Assembly: GCA_947459205.1 (NCBI GenBank)
Contig: CANHCR010000020.1
Span: forward strand, 1 to 43,534
From: Caryophanales bacterium
Lineage (GTDB): Bacteria; Bacillota; Bacilli; Paenibacillales; CANHCR01
Direction: 5' to 3'
DNA length: 43,534 nt
In this document: one piece after another, positions 36,158-43,534 of the stretch
How positions within the stretch are numbered: position 1 is the stretch's first letter
Layout of the letters: each line of letters opens with the position of its first letter
The notes under the pieces: generated by a model
What the model was told of the DNA's origin: nothing
Database searches by the model: none
What the model saw: only the letters and a program-made list of their open reading frames with translations
Made by a program: the position numbers and the translations under genes

Positions 36158-38011
36158 TTATTTACCATTTTTCGATTCCGTCACATACAGTCTAACATCA
36201 TTCATCCACGGAATCCCATATGGCGGATTGGAAAACAAGCGCGGATCGTATAAAATTTGCAAACGCGGGTCTTCGTTGCGCAAAAATCGCGGTTGTTTTT
36301 GATCTTCGAAATAATAACCAAGTGAAGCTTGCTGCAAACCAGGTTGCGGCACGGATGCAAAATCGCCACGCAACGCATTCAGTGTTACCGTCTTGCCAAA
36401 CAGTCCACCGATAATCCGATAACTCGAGACAATACCGAATAACTCGACGTCGTCATTGGAATACAAATACGCACGAATGTTGATCGGTTTTGAGGCTAGT
36501 GATTTGCCGGCCGTTGCTGCTAATGAATCGTCACGGTAAGAATTGAGCGAGATTTTACCGTTCGCAACAATGACTAGCGGTTCACCGAGCGAATCATCCG
36601 ATTCAGTCTGCGGCGGATTAATACTGCGCATGTCTTTCAAATCAACACTACCAGCGACGTACAACACGCCCTGCATGTTTAAGTTGCCGATAATTTTCAC
36701 ATCGCCTTGCACATACATCGAACCGTTGTATTTGAAGTCTGACAAGGTCGCGTTGCCGTTAATGACAATTTCGGCATTGCGTGCAGGGCGGTCATCATCA
36801 TCCAACATGACAATTTCGCCACTTAAATCTGCAGCAGAAATGTTTTCGTCTTTTTGACGAACGTAAAGCGATCCCTCGCGAATCACGAGTCGTGCATTGT
36901 TTTCCATACGAAACGCCGCACCGTCACTCAATTCATCATTGACTAGCAAATGTCCGCTAATGGTCAGATCATCATCCGTTGCTAAATTGTTGCCGATGAC
37001 AGTCACCCAATCGCGAAATTGGACATCTGTATTGAAAGAGTCGAGCCCACATTTGACAGAACAGCCCTCGCGCACCGTCACTCCCCGCCCGAGTTCCGTC
37101 CCCGCCTCGTCATCCGAAATTGGTTGAATGACACCGCTTAACAAACTTGCAGATTGCACTTTGGCAGCTACAATCGCGTTTGGCGAAAAACCAGGTGGAG
37201 GCACATCCTCAACGTTCACTTTTTCAACAAATGGAGCTGGCCAAGCAATTTGTTTCTGTACTTCATCGGTCGATACAGCTGAACCGCTCGATTTCAAAAA
37301 ACCGCGCCAAAATGGTGCCACCGCTGATATCGTCTGGCGATTACCGTTTTCATCAAAATAGCTGACTGCATCATTGACGACCAAGTTGTTATAGATTAAG
37401 CCATCGCCAATTACGGAAGGAGAACCATTCAGTGTAACGGCACCATCCTCCGATGTCGAGACGGCATAACGAAATACCGGCAAAATGTCACTGACATAAA
37501 CGACCAATTGTTTTTTTACATTCATTTGAATCGGTACTTTAACGCTTCCGGTGGATACGATTTCTAGACGATAAGAATAGGGCGCATCGGGGGCGTTTGC
37601 ATTCGGTTGACTAGCAATCGACTTTTTAATTTCGATGTTATATTCGCCTGACTCCGACCCGTCACTCGCGGATTTAATGACATCACGATATTCTTCTAGC
37701 GTCGCTAAATTCATATTGATTTGTTGTGCTCGTGCGATTCTCACATTCGTTTCAGCGGACTCCGCAGCCTGTTCACCGCGAACGAGCGCTTCGCGAATGA
37801 GTGTCAGTGCTTCATCAAGACCCATTTGTGCCATCGCTTCAGCACGAGCGCCCGCCACAACAGAAGCCGTACCTTTGTTATCCACGCGCAGTACATTCAA
37901 AAGTACGCCGCCTAGAATACTGAGTACGACGATGACGATTAAAACGACGAGCAGCGCAGAACCTTGCTCGTTACGCACTATGTTCATGGCTGTTCGTGCA
38001 ACTCCTCTCAT
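36158..38011 (-). CDS. PilX/GspK-like minor pilin with a large beta-rich domain
   Basis: This product (617 aa) begins with a type III signal-like N-terminus: RNEQG17 followed by S18-ALLVVLIVIVVLSILGG and the DxxG-type helix. The residue at mature position +5 is V, not the E conserved in major pilins; PilX- and GspK-type tip pilins share this. The bulk is a beta-rich region with short repeated turns (ISGHLLVND, INGNATLSDF, VQGDVKIIGNLNMQGVL, VAGSVDL; about residues 340-470) suggestive of a beta-helix. The ATG overlaps the preceding gene by 4 nt (ATGA). It likely completes a tip complex with the next two genes upstream. Confidence 0.8.
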   Translation of the reverse strand: MRGVARTAMNIVRNEQGSALLVVLIVIVVLSILGGVLLNVLRVDNKGTASVVAGARAEAMAQMGLDEALTLIREALVRGEQAAESAETNVRIARAQQINMNLATLEEYRDVIKSASDGSESGEYNIEIKKSIASQPNANAPDAPYSYRLEIVSTGSVKVPIQMNVKKQLVVYVSDILPVFRYAVSTSEDGAVTLNGSPSVIGDGLIYNNLVVNDAVSYFDENGNRQTISAVAPFWRGFLKSSGSAVSTDEVQKQIAWPAPFVEKVNVEDVPPPGFSPNAIVAAKVQSASLLSGVIQPISDDEAGTELGRGVTVREGCSVKCGLDSFNTDVQFRDWVTVIGNNLATDDDLTISGHLLVNDELSDGAAFRMENNARLVIREGSLYVRQKDENISAADLSGEIVMLDDDDRPARNAEIVINGNATLSDFKYNGSMYVQGDVKIIGNLNMQGVLYVAGSVDLKDMRSINPPQTESDDSLGEPLVIVANGKISLNSYRDDSLAATAGKSLASKPINIRAYLYSNDDVELFGIVSSYRIIGGLFGKTVTLNALRGDFASVPQPGLQQASLGYYFEDQKQPRFLRNEDPRLQILYDPRLFSNPPYGIPWMNDVRLYVTESKNGK

Positions 38012-38598
38012 TGAGCAATCGGGATTTCCGTTTTGATGCGAATGGTAGGCTGTTCTTTTACGGCATTTCCACGCTTTTTCGAAGTAAATACAAGATCGAC
38101 CGACACCAACTGACTGTCTGCAATCGAACGAACGGCGAGTTTTGACGTGTCTTGTATATCAAACTGCGATTTGTCAAGCGTACGAACGATCGAATTTTCC
38201 GAATCTTTGTCCATGATACCGCTACCCGTTACTGGGGTGAGACGAATGCTTTCCTCATCTGGACTGAGTAAGATCGAATAATAGCGAATGTAGTTTGAGT
38301 CCGTCTTTTGGCCTGCGTCTACCGTTTCTTTTTTGATGACGATAATTTCATTTTCACGCGAACCCTGATAAGCATAAACCGATTGTTCGAATAAATCGAG
38401 CAACTGGCTATAGAACACGTTTACTTGCGAGCGAAGCTGCGCCTCCGCTGCCACACGCTTATACATCGACATCCCCATAAAAAGAAAGGAATATAAGATC
38501 GTGGTAATCATCCCGAACAGTACGAGCGCAGTCATTACTTCGATGAGCGTCAGACCCTTTTGGTTATGCAACGGTTTAAAAAGTTTCATGGTCCTCAT
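38008..38598 (-). CDS. Type IV prepilin-like protein (PilW/GspJ-like)
   Basis: This protein (196 aa) has the prepilin cleavage motif QKG followed by LTLIEVMTALVLFGM, with the conserved glutamate at mature position +5 and a hydrophobic helix that ends near residue 45. The globular part (LRSQVNVFYSQLLDLFEQSVYAYQG) resembles PilW/GspJ/ComGF-type minor pilins. Two starts are possible (38598 or 38589); GGGAGG precedes both at unusual spacing. It directly abuts the upstream gene and overlaps the downstream one, implying coupled synthesis. Confidence 0.85.
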   Translation of the reverse strand: MRTMKLFKPLHNQKGLTLIEVMTALVLFGMITTILYSFLFMGMSMYKRVAAEAQLRSQVNVFYSQLLDLFEQSVYAYQGSRENEIIVIKKETVDAGQKTDSNYIRYYSILLSPDEESIRLTPVTGSGIMDKDSENSIVRTLDKSQFDIQDTSKLAVRSIADSQLVSVDLVFTSKKRGNAVKEQPTIRIKTEIPIAQ

Positions 38599-39204
38599 CT
38601 ACCTCCCGAATACAAGATACGAATCGAGATAGGTGGACATTTTTTTAGTGGGTTCAGCAATCGTATCTTCACTACCCCAGTAAACAGTTAAACGAAACTT
38701 AAGCAAAAAATCCATCGGTTTATTGCTAGAAGTACCTTGCGTAAACCCTTTAAATGCATCGGCATAGCCAGTTTGTTCATTCGCTTGGAGTTCGAAAATG
38801 TAGTGATAATTTACACCGTTGACCGATTTTTCCGGACGTAACAACGTATTTATGCTGAGCGGCTCTAACAATTGCAAATCAGCGTTGAGAACGGGCGAAT
38901 TGAAACGGTTCTCCGTCAATCGAAGCGTTCGTTCGCCAGAGAACAAAGGTGTCATCATCGACAATTTGCTAAATGTAGAGCCGTCATCCGCTAACGCTTC
39001 GCGAAGTTGTTCCACTTTCATATTGGCTAGCTTGATTGCCACGATTCGTCGACTGTCTTCCGCCGATGATTCAACGGACTGGATGAAATAGCCCATGATG
39101 GTCAATGAGACAAATGACATAATGGACACGCTAAGCAAGACTTCGACCAAAGAAAGCCCCGCTTGATTTGTGATGAACGTGTTCCATTTGCGCCACCTGC
39201 TCAT
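38599..39204 (-). CDS. Type IV prepilin-like protein (PilV/GspI-like)
   Basis: This protein (201 aa) has cleavage motif NQAG followed by LSLVEVLLSVSIMSFVSLTIM, with glutamate at mature +5. The short basic leader (MSRWRKWNTFITNQAG) is 16 residues, normal for class IVa. SVSIMSF and the KLANMKVEQLRE segment after the helix are typical of PilV/GspI minor pilins. The start has GAGGGG upstream and lies 13 nt after the stop of the giant protein. Confidence 0.85.
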   Translation of the reverse strand: MSRWRKWNTFITNQAGLSLVEVLLSVSIMSFVSLTIMGYFIQSVESSAEDSRRIVAIKLANMKVEQLREALADDGSTFSKLSMMTPLFSGERTLRLTENRFNSPVLNADLQLLEPLSINTLLRPEKSVNGVNYHYIFELQANEQTGYADAFKGFTQGTSSNKPMDFLLKFRLTVYWGSEDTIAEPTKKMSTYLDSYLVFGR

Positions 39205-39217
39205 GCCATTTCCCCTC

Positions 39218-42200
39218 TTAATGAATATTGATATTATAGTTGATTCGTACCCGTACTGGTGCTCGCTTGTGAATGGATGAATATCCGTTTTCCATAGAGC
39301 TCAAATTTTTGCTGTCGCGCAAACGGACGTAAACAAAATTCACTCCAGATGATGAGACGGTTAGCGAACGAGAGCCCAACTTCTTCCACCCTGTTGCAGA
39401 AGGTTCGGGCGGTGTACCAGTAAACGAGATGGGTCTGTTGATGATCTGATATTCAGGCGCCGTCAGTTTCATTCCTGAGACCATAGACCTCCAGTCGAAA
39501 CGCAACGGGACGGGACGATTGTGAACTCTCGATGTGACGGTCGATGCATTGACAAGCGACACATACGGTCCAACGTTTAGCCCCACGGTTCGCTCCTCAG
39601 CATCCGTTAAACCACCTTCATCCCGATAACTGACATTTATTTTTTTGTCGCCTTGTCTGACTTTTTCGTCAGCAAACAATGTGCTCCATTGCAGTGTGAT
39701 TTTTTTCGCAAAACCACTATCCAAACTTTCAATCGACAACAATTTTTTATCAATCGGATTGCCATCAATCGTAACACGAAAATCATCAGACACTGGCGTA
39801 TCGTCGGCAATTTGATAAGTCAGGCTCATATCGTTCGTTCGATTGGCGAACCTTACACCATTCAATGTCAACTCGTTTTGAACCGGAGGTTCGCTTGTCA
39901 CTTTAGGCGGTTCATTCGGCAAACGGTATTTAAAAGATGTTGAAAATTCGTCTCCAGTTTTCGCTACACCAGAGACAGCATCAGTAAATGCACGGAACAT
40001 ATGCGTTTGAAGGGCAAAATTGCTTGGCACTACCACTCGCTCTTCGGCATTCCAGTTGCTCCACGACTTACCGCCATCAAGCGAATACTCGTAGCCTTTT
40101 ATATATGAACTGAGAAAACCATTGTAGAGCAACATGTTTTCTGGATTGAGCGGAGTTGAGCCTAATAACGGTGATTTCAACGCTGAACCAGATACGCTCG
40201 TTATGCGTGTAGAAGGTAAAATGTTGGCGATAAATCGATTGCTTAAATTGGCGGACAAAAATTTATTGTCATTTGTCATATAGCTAACCGCAGTCGGTGT
40301 GGAAGGCAATAAATCCCATGATGTAACACTCATAGTGTTATGATGATTCGCTCGAACGGTCGTGTCATCATTTGCAAATTGGATGGAACGAATCGGATAT
40401 TTTGCGCCATCGCCAGCAAACGGGTCAATCGTCCATTGTAACACTCCACCATTCACACTATATCGAGAAAGCGTGCCATCGATTTTACCGACATACTTAT
40501 TACCGTACATATCATACCTTACCGCTGCTAATCGCATCTCATAAGATTCTTTTGCGCTTACAGAGCAGTTCATGTCCGTGTAAGGAAACTCAAGTTTAGC
40601 GGCGTTTAGTTTGAATACACCACCATCATTCGAAAGCACATTCACCTTTATTTTGAACGCCGAATTGCTGCTTAACGGTATCTCATTCAGCGCAATTTTC
40701 AAGATCCCGTTATTAAGTGTCACTGAGTTGGGATACACTTGGTCGTTAACAATTGCGTCAGCAACGTTTGTCCCGCCAGGCAAAGTGAACCCAGATGGAA
40801 CAGATTGTACCAAACTAACTTCTGATAATTTTTCGGTTGATAGTTGTGAGACGATCCCTTCCAAATTCAATCGGAATTGTTCTGCATCCTCCGCGCGGAA
40901 GAAACTTCCCCGGCCGACTTTTGCAATGTACTCAAGAAACGTTAAATCAATCGCTGCAGAATCAATGTTAATCGCATTATCTGAACCGATGGCAATGACA
41001 TGAACTTCAGATCCAGTAGAAACAAGATGTTGTAATTGCTCTCGGGCATGTGTATAACCGAGTCTACGCGCAAACGGGTTTTCGCGAGATTGACCGAAGA
41101 TAAGCGTGCTATTGCCATTGCCCTCTAACTTCCCTGTATTCGGATCCACATTGGGCAAACCGTCACTTAAGAAAATGACGATTTTCCGCCGGTCTTCTGG
41201 TTCATAAAATTCAGGTTTCGAGGCGATAATTTTTCCGTTCGTACTCGACACAGATGAGTATGTGCTCGTACCGGATGAAAACAATACAGGATTGCCATTC
41301 AGTTTTTGCCATAACGATTGCTTTTCATCAGTGAAGACTGCTCGAAAACTATCCAAATTCGTCAACGGCACCGTGAATTTGTGATACCCTTTCAATTCGG
41401 AAGGGTACATTTTTTCACCAGGCGCTTTCGTCCAAACGCCGTTCAATTCATAGTGAATATAAGGTTCATCAATCCCGTTTACCGCACCACTATGGTAATA
41501 TACGGTAGCCATCTTTGTTTCGCCGCGAACCATTTGCGAGTGGTTGATTTTTCTACCCACTACCTCACGTGGCGAGCCACTCACAAGTGTGCTTGAGACC
41601 GGATAATAAACCGAATAATCTCTTGGTAACGGGAAATTCCTACCGCCATTATTTTGCCAATTGCCATTGCCATCCGTGAAAGCAGCTTGGTTAATACTCG
41701 TAAAACTTCCGAGCGGAATGAGCGTAGTATGATATCCAGTGACCGTCGAAGGAACCATAGGTATGCCTGGCAGCGTCGTCCACCTACTGCCATCCATTGA
41801 ATAATGAATATGCGGATTTTCCAAAGCGCTCATCCCACTTAACGTATACAACTCATCACTCTTATAGTAAACTCGCGCAACATTTTGATTTTGAATAAAT
41901 TGGAACGGCGACTTATCGACGATTGTGTTGGTCTCAGGATCATAAAGTTTTATCCCGGGTTTGATTTTGTTGAAAAAGCGCCGATCCCCTTGTGAGTCGT
42001 TGAATGTTCCGTCAGAAAAAGCGAATCGCTCAATATCCTCGTTTGCGCCTAAATCAATCGAAAGGTAATGGTATCCCGCAATCATCGACGGACTCATTTT
42101 AAGACCGTTAGTACCGGTCCATTGAGTACCATCTAATGTGTAGTGGATGTGTGGTGACTGATAAAAATGTTTCTGAGCAGTGTTCGTATACCGATTGCTT

Positions 42201-43534
42201 TTATAGTAAATCACGGCGATGTTATGATCATTCGGATTGTCTGCATACAACTTTTGCGTGACGGGGTCGTAAACCATCACTTTATCATTAATCTTATTAA
42301 AAAAATTGTTCCCGTTATCATTTTGCCATTTACGCAAAGCGGCATTTGCATTTCCGTCATTGAATGCCATTTTTGATAACTTCGAAGTTTCCCCGAGATC
42401 AATCGTGATATAGTGATATCCAGCAATCTTTGATGGTGTCATTTTTAATCCTGGATCGTTCGTCCAGTTCACTCCATCAATCGAAAAATGAATAAACGGA
42501 TTGCGAAATGGCTGTCTCTTTGTTTCATTGGTGTTCACGGTCATCGGTCCACCACTTTTGTAATAAATTGTTACGGTGTTCGAAATGACCGTTTTGTTCG
42601 TCACAGGATTGACAATCGTTTTGACAACTTCATCTGTGTGTTCGTCGAGTTTCTCCGTAAATACTGAGTTTACGCCTGCATAGAACGTTCCCGAACCTTC
42701 CGCACGATTCGTAAACAGATGAGACGCATGCGGAAATGGCGTCGCATAAAACGGTGCATTATCATCCGAAACGAGCAATGGTTTTGGGTTCGATCCGATT
42801 GTTTTGATTAGATTTCCGAACAGGTCGAATTTCTTTCTTCGCGGTTGGTATGCTTCAAAAAAGTTTGGATAAAAATTAGCACGGTTATCAATGTAGCGAA
42901 AATGAGCATAAAGCGGTCGATTCGCATCGATTTCTAGATCTTTTTTATATAAACCAAATGCTTCTGAAATGTCCATCGTTTTTGTCGTCCACTCATCTGC
43001 AGGGTTGTGACGATGCCTGATTTCTGGAATCGAAAAACCATTATAACGGTAAAAAAACGTGAATTTTTTCTTGTTCGGCGTTCGGAACGTTACGACATTG
43101 CTGGCAGAAGATACTAAGCCTTTTAAATCAACCGCACGCACAGCAACCGAGTATACATTATCAGCAGTCAAGTTATGAAAGGCATACGACAAACTTGTGG
43201 TGGTACCTTCTAAATTTCCGTTCAAAAACACTTGATAGTGACGTACGCCGCTATTATCAAGAGCTGCTGACCAATTAAACTCTGCAGATGTACTGTCAGA
43301 TTTAGATAATTGTAGTTTAACTGGCGCGGTCGGTGGAGTAACGTCGACTTTCGTCGTAATTCTAAGGACCTGACTTCGCTTTGATTGCACGCCATTTTTA
43401 TCTACTGCAAGCACGTAATAATCATATGTACTAGACGGGACAATGTTTGTATCTGTATAGCTCGTCGCTATCGTTTCGAGAATTTTCGTGTAGTTAAACA
43501 TCGAATCTTTACTTCGATACAATTCATAGCGCAA
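39218..43534 (-). CDS. Giant extracellular FN3 / CBM25-like / vWA protein, probable pilus-tip adhesin (5' end outside window)
   Basis: At least 1438 residues; the N-terminus lies beyond the right edge, so no signal peptide can be seen. In visible order: part of one FN3 module (to about residue 60), a second FN3 (about 66-152), a degenerate CBM-like segment (157-250), a segment with EGSGTFYAGVNSVF (279-292) like a vWA metal-loop region, four CBM25-like modules (319-757), then the C-terminal half of a vWA domain: KIVIFLSDGLPN (784-795), VHVIAIG (844-850) and a final helix to about 898. Beta-sandwich-like sequence follows to the end. There is no LPXTG motif or C-terminal membrane anchor, unlike sortase-linked adhesins. 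It lies immediately upstream of three prepilin genes, like PilY1 in Gram-negative loci. PilY1-like is inferred from context, not from sequence identity. Confidence 0.75.
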   Translation of the reverse strand: MRYELYRSKDSMFNYTKILETIATSYTDTNIVPSSTYDYYVLAVDKNGVQSKRSQVLRITTKVDVTPPTAPVKLQLSKSDSTSAEFNWSAALDNSGVRHYQVFLNGNLEGTTTSLSYAFHNLTADNVYSVAVRAVDLKGLVSSASNVVTFRTPNKKKFTFFYRYNGFSIPEIRHRHNPADEWTTKTMDISEAFGLYKKDLEIDANRPLYAHFRYIDNRANFYPNFFEAYQPRRKKFDLFGNLIKTIGSNPKPLLVSDDNAPFYATPFPHASHLFTNRAEGSGTFYAGVNSVFTEKLDEHTDEVVKTIVNPVTNKTVISNTVTIYYKSGGPMTVNTNETKRQPFRNPFIHFSIDGVNWTNDPGLKMTPSKIAGYHYITIDLGETSKLSKMAFNDGNANAALRKWQNDNGNNFFNKINDKVMVYDPVTQKLYADNPNDHNIAVIYYKSNRYTNTAQKHFYQSPHIHYTLDGTQWTGTNGLKMSPSMIAGYHYLSIDLGANEDIERFAFSDGTFNDSQGDRRFFNKIKPGIKLYDPETNTIVDKSPFQFIQNQNVARVYYKSDELYTLSGMSALENPHIHYSMDGSRWTTLPGIPMVPSTVTGYHTTLIPLGSFTSINQAAFTDGNGNWQNNGGRNFPLPRDYSVYYPVSSTLVSGSPREVVGRKINHSQMVRGETKMATVYYHSGAVNGIDEPYIHYELNGVWTKAPGEKMYPSELKGYHKFTVPLTNLDSFRAVFTDEKQSLWQKLNGNPVLFSSGTSTYSSVSSTNGKIIASKPEFYEPEDRRKIVIFLSDGLPNVDPNTGKLEGNGNSTLIFGQSRENPFARRLGYTHAREQLQHLVSTGSEVHVIAIGSDNAINIDSAAIDLTFLEYIAKVGRGSFFRAEDAEQFRLNLEGIVSQLSTEKLSEVSLVQSVPSGFTLPGGTNVADAIVNDQVYPNSVTLNNGILKIALNEIPLSSNSAFKIKVNVLSNDGGVFKLNAAKLEFPYTDMNCSVSAKESYEMRLAAVRYDMYGNKYVGKIDGTLSRYSVNGGVLQWTIDPFAGDGAKYPIRSIQFANDDTTVRANHHNTMSVTSWDLLPSTPTAVSYMTNDNKFLSANLSNRFIANILPSTRITSVSGSALKSPLLGSTPLNPENMLLYNGFLSSYIKGYEYSLDGGKSWSNWNAEERVVVPSNFALQTHMFRAFTDAVSGVAKTGDEFSTSFKYRLPNEPPKVTSEPPVQNELTLNGVRFANRTNDMSLTYQIADDTPVSDDFRVTIDGNPIDKKLLSIESLDSGFAKKITLQWSTLFADEKVRQGDKKINVSYRDEGGLTDAEERTVGLNVGPYVSLVNASTVTSRVHNRPVPLRFDWRSMVSGMKLTAPEYQIINRPISFTGTPPEPSATGWKKLGSRSLTVSSSGVNFVYVRLRDSKNLSSMENGYSSIHKRAPVRVRINYNINIH
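41264..42580 (-). repeat. Four tandem CBM25-like modules within the giant protein
   Basis: Modules lie at about 42580-42245, 42220-41915, 41884-41579 and 41515-41264. Each starts with a [IV]YY[KH]S strand, then an aromatic core P-[FHY]-IH-[FY]-x3-G-x-WT, a P-x-x-[KL]-M segment, GYHxxxI-L, and [AV]F-x-DG or FTD. The first and third end with W-x-N and F-N/NF, as in starch-binding family 25. The copies differ widely in sequence, so they are old duplications. A fifth, degenerate copy may lie at about 43066-42785 (FFYRYNG, EWTTKTMDI). Confidence 0.75.

Follow-up and report, generated by a model that had tools for sequence, protein, structure and literature searches.

A candidate type IV pilus tip protein carrying a CBM25 cassette within its vWA domain in a small-genome relative of Paenibacillus

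Results

The giant gene and its split vWA domain

We analyzed a DNA stretch of 43,534 nucleotides from a Caryophanales bacterium (assembly GCA_947459205.1, contig CANHCR010000020.1), called the window here. At its right end lie four minus-strand genes, encoding a giant protein and three minor prepilins (V, W and X), which constitute the 3' half of a full monoderm type IV pilus (T4P) operon. In the giant, a cassette of fibronectin type III (FN3) domains and family 25 carbohydrate-binding modules (CBM25) is inserted into a von Willebrand factor A (vWA) domain, and the metal ion-dependent adhesion site (MIDAS) of that domain has been lost. The starch-contact residues of CBM25 are conserved in most of the modules, and the host, a small-genome (2.5 Mb) relative of Paenibacillus packed with starch-digesting proteins, has an expanded set of CBM25 domains. 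The best explanation, which we consider somewhat probable, is that the giant is a pilus tip effector re-targeted from MIDAS-type ligands to alpha-glucans, and that it would serve in retractable starch capture.

The window is contig C20, and its right end truncates the giant gene. This end and one end of contig C13 share an exact 149-bp overlap, which is found in the genome at these two ends only. Joining C13 and C20 gives an open frame of 1674 codons, counted from the first ATG. A strong AAGGAGG site precedes another ATG a few codons downstream, from which the giant would have 1666-1667 aa. Read from this ATG, the N-terminus MSQIKSTIAVVLICVLLFPVMTGQASVASS looks by eye like a Sec signal and not like a prepilin leader. 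The TTG start at 43534 is a contig-edge artefact, the gene running on into C13. The parts of the giant are as follows.

39218..43534, minus strand: giant tip-effector candidate, residues 237-1674 of 1674 (open frame across the C13/C20 overlap, and Pfam)
Contig C13, L003:17158-18012: remaining N-terminal part, with a Sec-type signal and no prepilin signal
43079..43534, minus strand: part of FN3-1 and all of FN3-2, residues 237-388, at the N-terminal side of the cassette (fn3 6e-11 in the window, 1.5e-7 on C13)
42833..43078, minus strand: degenerate CBM25-like segment, residues 389-470; no Pfam match; aligned with CBM25, it keeps the W34 position but neither H26 nor W74
42257..42580, minus strand: CBM25 module 1, residues 555-662; H26, W34 and W74 equivalents all present
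41909..42235, minus strand: CBM25 module 2, residues 670-778; W74 equivalent missing
41555..41887, minus strand: CBM25 module 3, residues 786-896; H26, W34 and W74 equivalents all present; matched by 2C3V
41207..41521, minus strand: CBM25 module 4, residues 908-1012; H26, W34 and W74 equivalents all present; matched by 2LAB/2LAA
40835..41197, minus strand: C-terminal half of the split vWA domain, residues 1016-1136; its Asp (LSDG) is the sole MIDAS residue kept
39221..40834, minus strand: C-terminal beta-rich region, residues 1137-1674, conserved with orthologues (alignments, BLAST)

The vWA part within the window is the C-terminal half of the domain and is not recognized by Pfam on its own; the N-terminal half is on C13. 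Between them, the cassette of ~810 residues (206-1015) holds two FN3 domains, the degenerate CBM25-like stretch and four CBM25 modules. It stands between a helix and a strand that directly follow one another in orthologues. In the AlphaFold2 (AF2) model of an orthologue, the insertion point is loop 184-189, between helix 171-183 and strand 190-197. This loop leads into the strand whose opposite end bears the MIDAS Asp, and vWA topology would place the insertion on the face opposite the MIDAS. Upon excision of the cassette in silico, the Pfam score increased from 22.3 to 40 bits for VWA (cut-off 23.8 bits) and from 38.6 to 49.6 bits for VWA_2 (cut-off 27 bits), and the two fragments became one VWA domain. 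The cassette-free giant aligned to an orthologue in a single BLAST alignment across the junction (E 3e-45).

All 15 orthologues have D/S/S/T/D at the five MIDAS positions, compared with E/A/T/K/D in the giant, so that four of five are changed and the adhesive pattern of DxSxS, Thr and Asp is gone. The closest structural match of the orthologue vWA fold was the vWA domain of Streptococcus sanguinis PilB (Z 26.9, 2.1 A, 211 residues), the next match being Mfa5, a tip protein of type V pili. The MIDAS of S. sanguinis PilB binds metal and matters for T4P function (PMC8179133). Together with the changed residues, this suggests that the lineage no longer uses the MIDAS site. A first-pass annotation of the window had described the giant as a vWA/CBM/FN3 protein. 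Pfam bears out the CBM and FN3 parts (CBM_25, fn3), but the vWA domain is not a normal adhesive one, being interrupted, present in the window as its C-terminal half and without its MIDAS.

The giant has no N_methyl match and a Sec-like N-terminus, unlike modular pilins, in which the adhesive chain itself carries a class III signal. Instead, it is a non-pilin with a Sec-type signal (read by eye) encoded beside minor pilins, as PilC/PilY1-type proteins are. The first-pass annotation had proposed a PilY1-like role; equivalence to PilY1 at the family level was not borne out: Pfam found no PilY1/PilC domain, including the C-terminal beta-propeller (IPR008707), either in the part of the giant within the window or in the scanned orthologues. 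This negative comes from sequence profiles, the VIA and Foldseek lists for the orthologue being filled by its vWA domain and not by the C-terminal part.

CBM25 modules in the giant and in the genome

The CBM_25 profile of Pfam matched the giant over four stretches (5.5e-55), so that the modules first described as CBM25-like are true members of this starch-binding family. In 2C3V the ligand site consists of H26, W34, W74, N76 and D81 (PMC4625611). Equivalents of H26, W34 and W74 are all conserved in three of the four modules (1, 3 and 4), and module 2 has two of the three. Judged by these residues the modules look functional, and the giant would probably bind starch.

The host genome has 38 CBM25 domains (loci L079-L089). 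They are carried by GH13 amylases, by CBM26-bearing proteins and by many large FN3 proteins, one of which has an S-layer homology (SLH) domain. Several of these proteins start with hydrophobic N-termini that read by eye as Sec signals. When 300 genomes of the class were searched, 18 had any CBM25 match, and every one except the host had four or fewer; the expansion is thus extreme compared with the sampled genomes. The cassette is about 25-40% identical to FN3-CBM25 parts of other proteins of the same genome, which are a plausible source of it. Base composition is even over the parts of the giant gene (G+C 0.41-0.44), so there is no sign of recent foreign DNA. One other CBM25 protein has an unusual combination, a CotH kinase domain fused to four CBM25 modules (L087:2751-6503).

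Pilus assembly genes

Upstream of the giant, C13 carries closely spaced genes for PilB, PilC, PilA, PilM, PilN and PilO, in this order. PilB matches Pfam T2SSE (2.6e-136) and MshEN, PilC matches T2SSF, and PilM matches PilM_2. The major pilin PilA has a GLTLIE motif and an N_methyl match of 1.3e-8. Pfam matches were weak for PilN (E 0.14) and for PilO (below cut-off); both proteins align with their counterparts at the same operon position in relatives. PilT (L090:3663-4742, 359 aa, T2SSE 5e-56) and the prepilin peptidase PilD adjoin each other on contig C35, outside the operon. PilT was identified by its length, the absence of an MshEN domain and its position. The first-pass annotation had called for pilB, pilC, pilM-N-O, pilD and a major pilin beyond the contig end; all were found, and pilT as well. 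The genome therefore encodes the extension ATPase, platform, class III major pilin, PilM/N/O and peptidase of a monoderm type IVa pilus, for which a secretin is not required, and also the retraction ATPase that distinguishes T4P from a type II secretion system.

C13 also carries, at a distance of over 20 kb on the upstream side of the T4P operon, a tad-type-looking pilus locus (L004:264-7037; C13:20263-27036), with CpaE-like, CpaF/TadA-like and TadB-/TadC-like proteins and two membrane or secreted proteins; here the profile check covered the ATPase only. An Rfam search of the window gave zero matches.

Minor prepilins V, W and X

Downstream of the giant are three minor prepilin genes.

38599..39204, minus strand: V minor prepilin, G^LSLVE, Glu5 present (sub-threshold N_methyl, 9.7e-4; orthologues in syntenic operons)
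38008..38598, minus strand: W minor prepilin, G^LTLIE, Glu5 present (N_methyl 1.6e-7, above the Pfam cut-off; synteny)
36158..38011, minus strand: X, PilX/GspK-like minor prepilin, G^SALLV, no Glu5; long N-terminal helix and beta-solenoid predicted

The gap between the giant and V is 13 nt, V and W are separated by 0 nt, and W and X overlap by 4 nt (ATGA). Coordinates, strand and spacings agree with the first-pass annotation, as does its reading of two prepilins with Glu5 and a third without.

X gave no Pfam match. Its leader is prepilin-like, and Glu5 is absent from X and from all 15 homologues in a 16-row alignment. The AF2 model (mean pLDDT, the predicted local distance difference test score, 74) has a pilin-type N-terminal helix (residues 5-83), which without Glu5 is the arrangement of GspK/PilX minor pilins, followed by a beta-solenoid where GspK has an alpha-domain inserted in the pilin sheet. 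The best Foldseek match of X was the Thermus pilin ComZ (6qvi, E 1e-3). By VIA, X matched ComZ with Z 13.6 at 11 A, and unrelated solenoids reached higher Z. In the predicted structure of X, the solenoid shape alone is secure. Matches to ice-binding proteins (Z about 15) were likewise taken as common beta-solenoid shape only.

The operon and the vWA protein in relatives

A search with X found homologues within the same taxonomic order. At 17 related loci the genes run B-C-A-M-N-O-T-Y-vWA-V-W-X, in many cases with a response regulator after them, excepting genes lost at contig ends and the divergent locus L028. Eleven of these loci are from named Paenibacillus genomes, and at least one locus is counted twice. 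The arrangement of a vWA gene with minor pilins is thus conserved in relatives, a co-occurrence for which the first-pass annotation had asked.

Among 395 genomes of the order, named Paenibacillus species included, we found 15 true orthologues of the vWA protein, of about 790-1120 aa. None of the 15 has an insert in the vWA domain; in the longer ones (L061, L063) the extra length lies outside it. A direct search for the giant in named genomes gave no match. The vWA gene does not always accompany V-W-X, which occurs without it elsewhere in the order and also in two further Bacilli genomes; the vWA protein is therefore an optional partner of the minor-pilin set.

Directly before the vWA gene, most T4P operons of relatives have gene Y, which encodes a short, conserved SLH protein of ~400 aa; this protein may anchor the pilus, or the protein at its tip, in the S-layer. 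Searches with vWA-protein profiles further matched Sec-type vWA proteins with an intact MIDAS in other Bacillota families (G595, G691, G400), which suggests a widespread monoderm tip effector. The loci are listed below.

L027:6220-7419: Y SLH protein; equivalents in L024-L026, L029 and L092-L102
L194, L195 and L196: vWA proteins of other Bacillota, in T4P operons after large minor pilins and near PilM-like genes

Discussion

Proposed mechanism

The locus is the part of a complete monoderm type IVa pilus operon that encodes the minor pilins and the tip candidate. V, W and X most likely initiate filament assembly and make up the complex at its tip, and from what is known of GspI/J/K and of PilV/W/X/PilY1 systems, this complex may by analogy present the giant, a putative Sec-secreted non-pilin effector. 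The corresponding effector of relatives would be the vWA protein with an intact MIDAS. In the lineage studied here the FN3x2-CBM25x4 cassette has entered a loop of the vWA domain and the MIDAS has decayed; we propose that binding is now to alpha-glucans. Because PilT is present, we infer capture by retraction: the pilus would extend, the multivalent CBM25 array would grip starch or glycogen, and PilT-driven retraction would draw the substrate towards a cell with many secreted CBM25 amylases.

Several points weigh against this proposal. The tip location of the giant, as opposed to a free or wall-bound protein, is something that we infer, and its N- and C-terminal halves are just about 23-32% identical to the orthologues. 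The full gene is visible only when two contigs are joined. The CBM25-insert form is known from this one genome (n=1), with no such orthologue in any other genome searched. The SLH gene Y is missing beside the vWA gene here, and a search of the genome did not turn up its N-terminal part. Finally, PilT is outside the pil operon.

Alternatives

The giant could be a surface or secreted starch binder whose gene happens to lie within the pil operon; it would scavenge starch at the cell wall without being displayed by the pilus. The genome does contain many non-catalytic FN3/CBM25 proteins, one of them SLH-anchored, and the giant has a Sec-type signal with no prepilin motif. We nevertheless find this unlikely: on either side of the cassette, the giant is conserved with a protein that the T4P operon encodes in the relatives examined, the vWA fold of an orthologue is nearest to a T4P tip adhesin, and the Pfam scan gave no wall anchor domain in the giant. 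The same scan gave no catalytic domain, and with flanks orthologous to pil-operon vWA proteins the giant was also rejected as an unrelated secreted enzyme.

If the giant is displayed at the tip, its cassette might still bind another glycan, such as bacterial glycogen, an exopolysaccharide or a wall polymer of the cell itself, for aggregation or biofilm formation. CBM25 binds alpha-glucans in general, and T4P often mediate aggregation. Such a role is rather improbable, as the genome-wide expansion of CBM25 on GH13 enzymes points to starch-like food.

Less probable still, the system would be a pseudopilus of type II-like secretion used for amylase export, in which the vWA protein serves as substrate or adaptor. 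V, W and X resemble GspI/J/K in number and in the absence of Glu5 from X, and many large CBM25 enzymes require export. However, PilT is present, PilM/N/O are of the T4P type, and several CBM25 proteins have Sec-like N-termini (by eye).

It is hardly credible that the vWA/CBM25 fusion arose from faulty assembly or marks a gene in decay: the gene is indeed spread over two contigs and its MIDAS residues are lost, but the vWA-N/FN3 joint lies inside C13 and the CBM25/vWA-C joint inside C20, both in frame and at the same fold position, where two matching errors are unlikely, and the overlap is exact and unique to these contig ends, the frame of 1674 codons is open and G+C is even.

Significance

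We return to the proposal of a re-targeted tip effector. In a wider form, which we offer tentatively, the monoderm T4P of Bacillota may have a widespread, largely unstudied non-pilin vWA tip effector, PilY1-like without the propeller, which in this host would be re-targeted to starch through a CBM25 array to make a retractable starch-grappling pilus. The Gram-positive T4P tip effector would then appear to be a swappable platform, and the intact-MIDAS orthologue and the CBM25-inserted form are a natural before-and-after pair for studying how pilus specificity evolves. If the cassette binds starch, T4P would be directly linked to capturing insoluble polysaccharide as food.

These observations also bear on the published absence of PilC/PilY1-type tip proteins from monoderms (PMC9934059). 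The Sec-secreted vWA protein in T4P operons of Paenibacillus and other Bacillota has a PilC/PilY1-like genetic position and may do the same job.

Comparison with known systems

That T4P tip proteins can bind carbohydrates is already known in principle (S. sanguinis PilC, PMC9934059). Lectin-bearing pilins (PMC9934059) and many modular architectures (PMC8179133) have been described as well. In the literature searched we came across neither starch-binding modules on a tip protein of T4P nor a CBM25 array inserted in a vWA tip candidate. Searches there for tapirins and for starch together with T4P yielded nothing useful. T4P of P. thiaminolyticus have been studied (PMC9765702), and the terms vWA, von Willebrand and pilX are absent from the text of that paper.

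Among the closest known systems are the vWA proteins of Paenibacillus T4P operons (for example in P. koleovorans, P. pectinilyticus and P. cremeus; L092-L102). They are orthologous to the giant, directly precede V-W-X and have the same N-terminal vWA domain and beta-rich C-terminal part. In contrast, they are about 790-1120 aa long, lack the FN3/CBM25 cassette and keep an intact MIDAS, and their operons include the SLH gene and an adjacent pilT.

S. sanguinis PilB and PilC also belong to a monoderm T4P, in which vWA and glycan-binding modules are proposed to be at the tip with minor pilins (PMC8179133, PMC9934059). In S. sanguinis these modules belong to pilins that bear class III signals, and the MIDAS of PilB works, whereas the giant is one Sec-secreted non-pilin that carries both kinds of module and has lost its MIDAS.

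PilC/PilY1 of diderm type IVa pili resembles the giant as a large Sec-type non-pilin with an N-terminal vWA domain encoded with minor pilins, but has a PilY1/PilC domain that Pfam does not detect in the giant. Insertions into the vWA scaffold have been described for ComC of Acinetobacter baumannii (PMC10374093). The ComC insert is a finger, whereas that of the giant is a whole multi-domain cassette of starch-binding type.

Thermus ComZ resembles X as a pilin with a beta-solenoid module, although the overall match is weak; a DNA-binding role has been proposed for ComZ (PMC8179133). The CBM25 modules of Bacillus halodurans and Paenibacillus amylases (2C3V, 2LAA, 2LAB) are of the same family and have the same starch-contact residues as modules 1, 3 and 4. 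Those modules sit on amylases, whereas the CBM25 modules of the giant sit on a candidate pilus protein.

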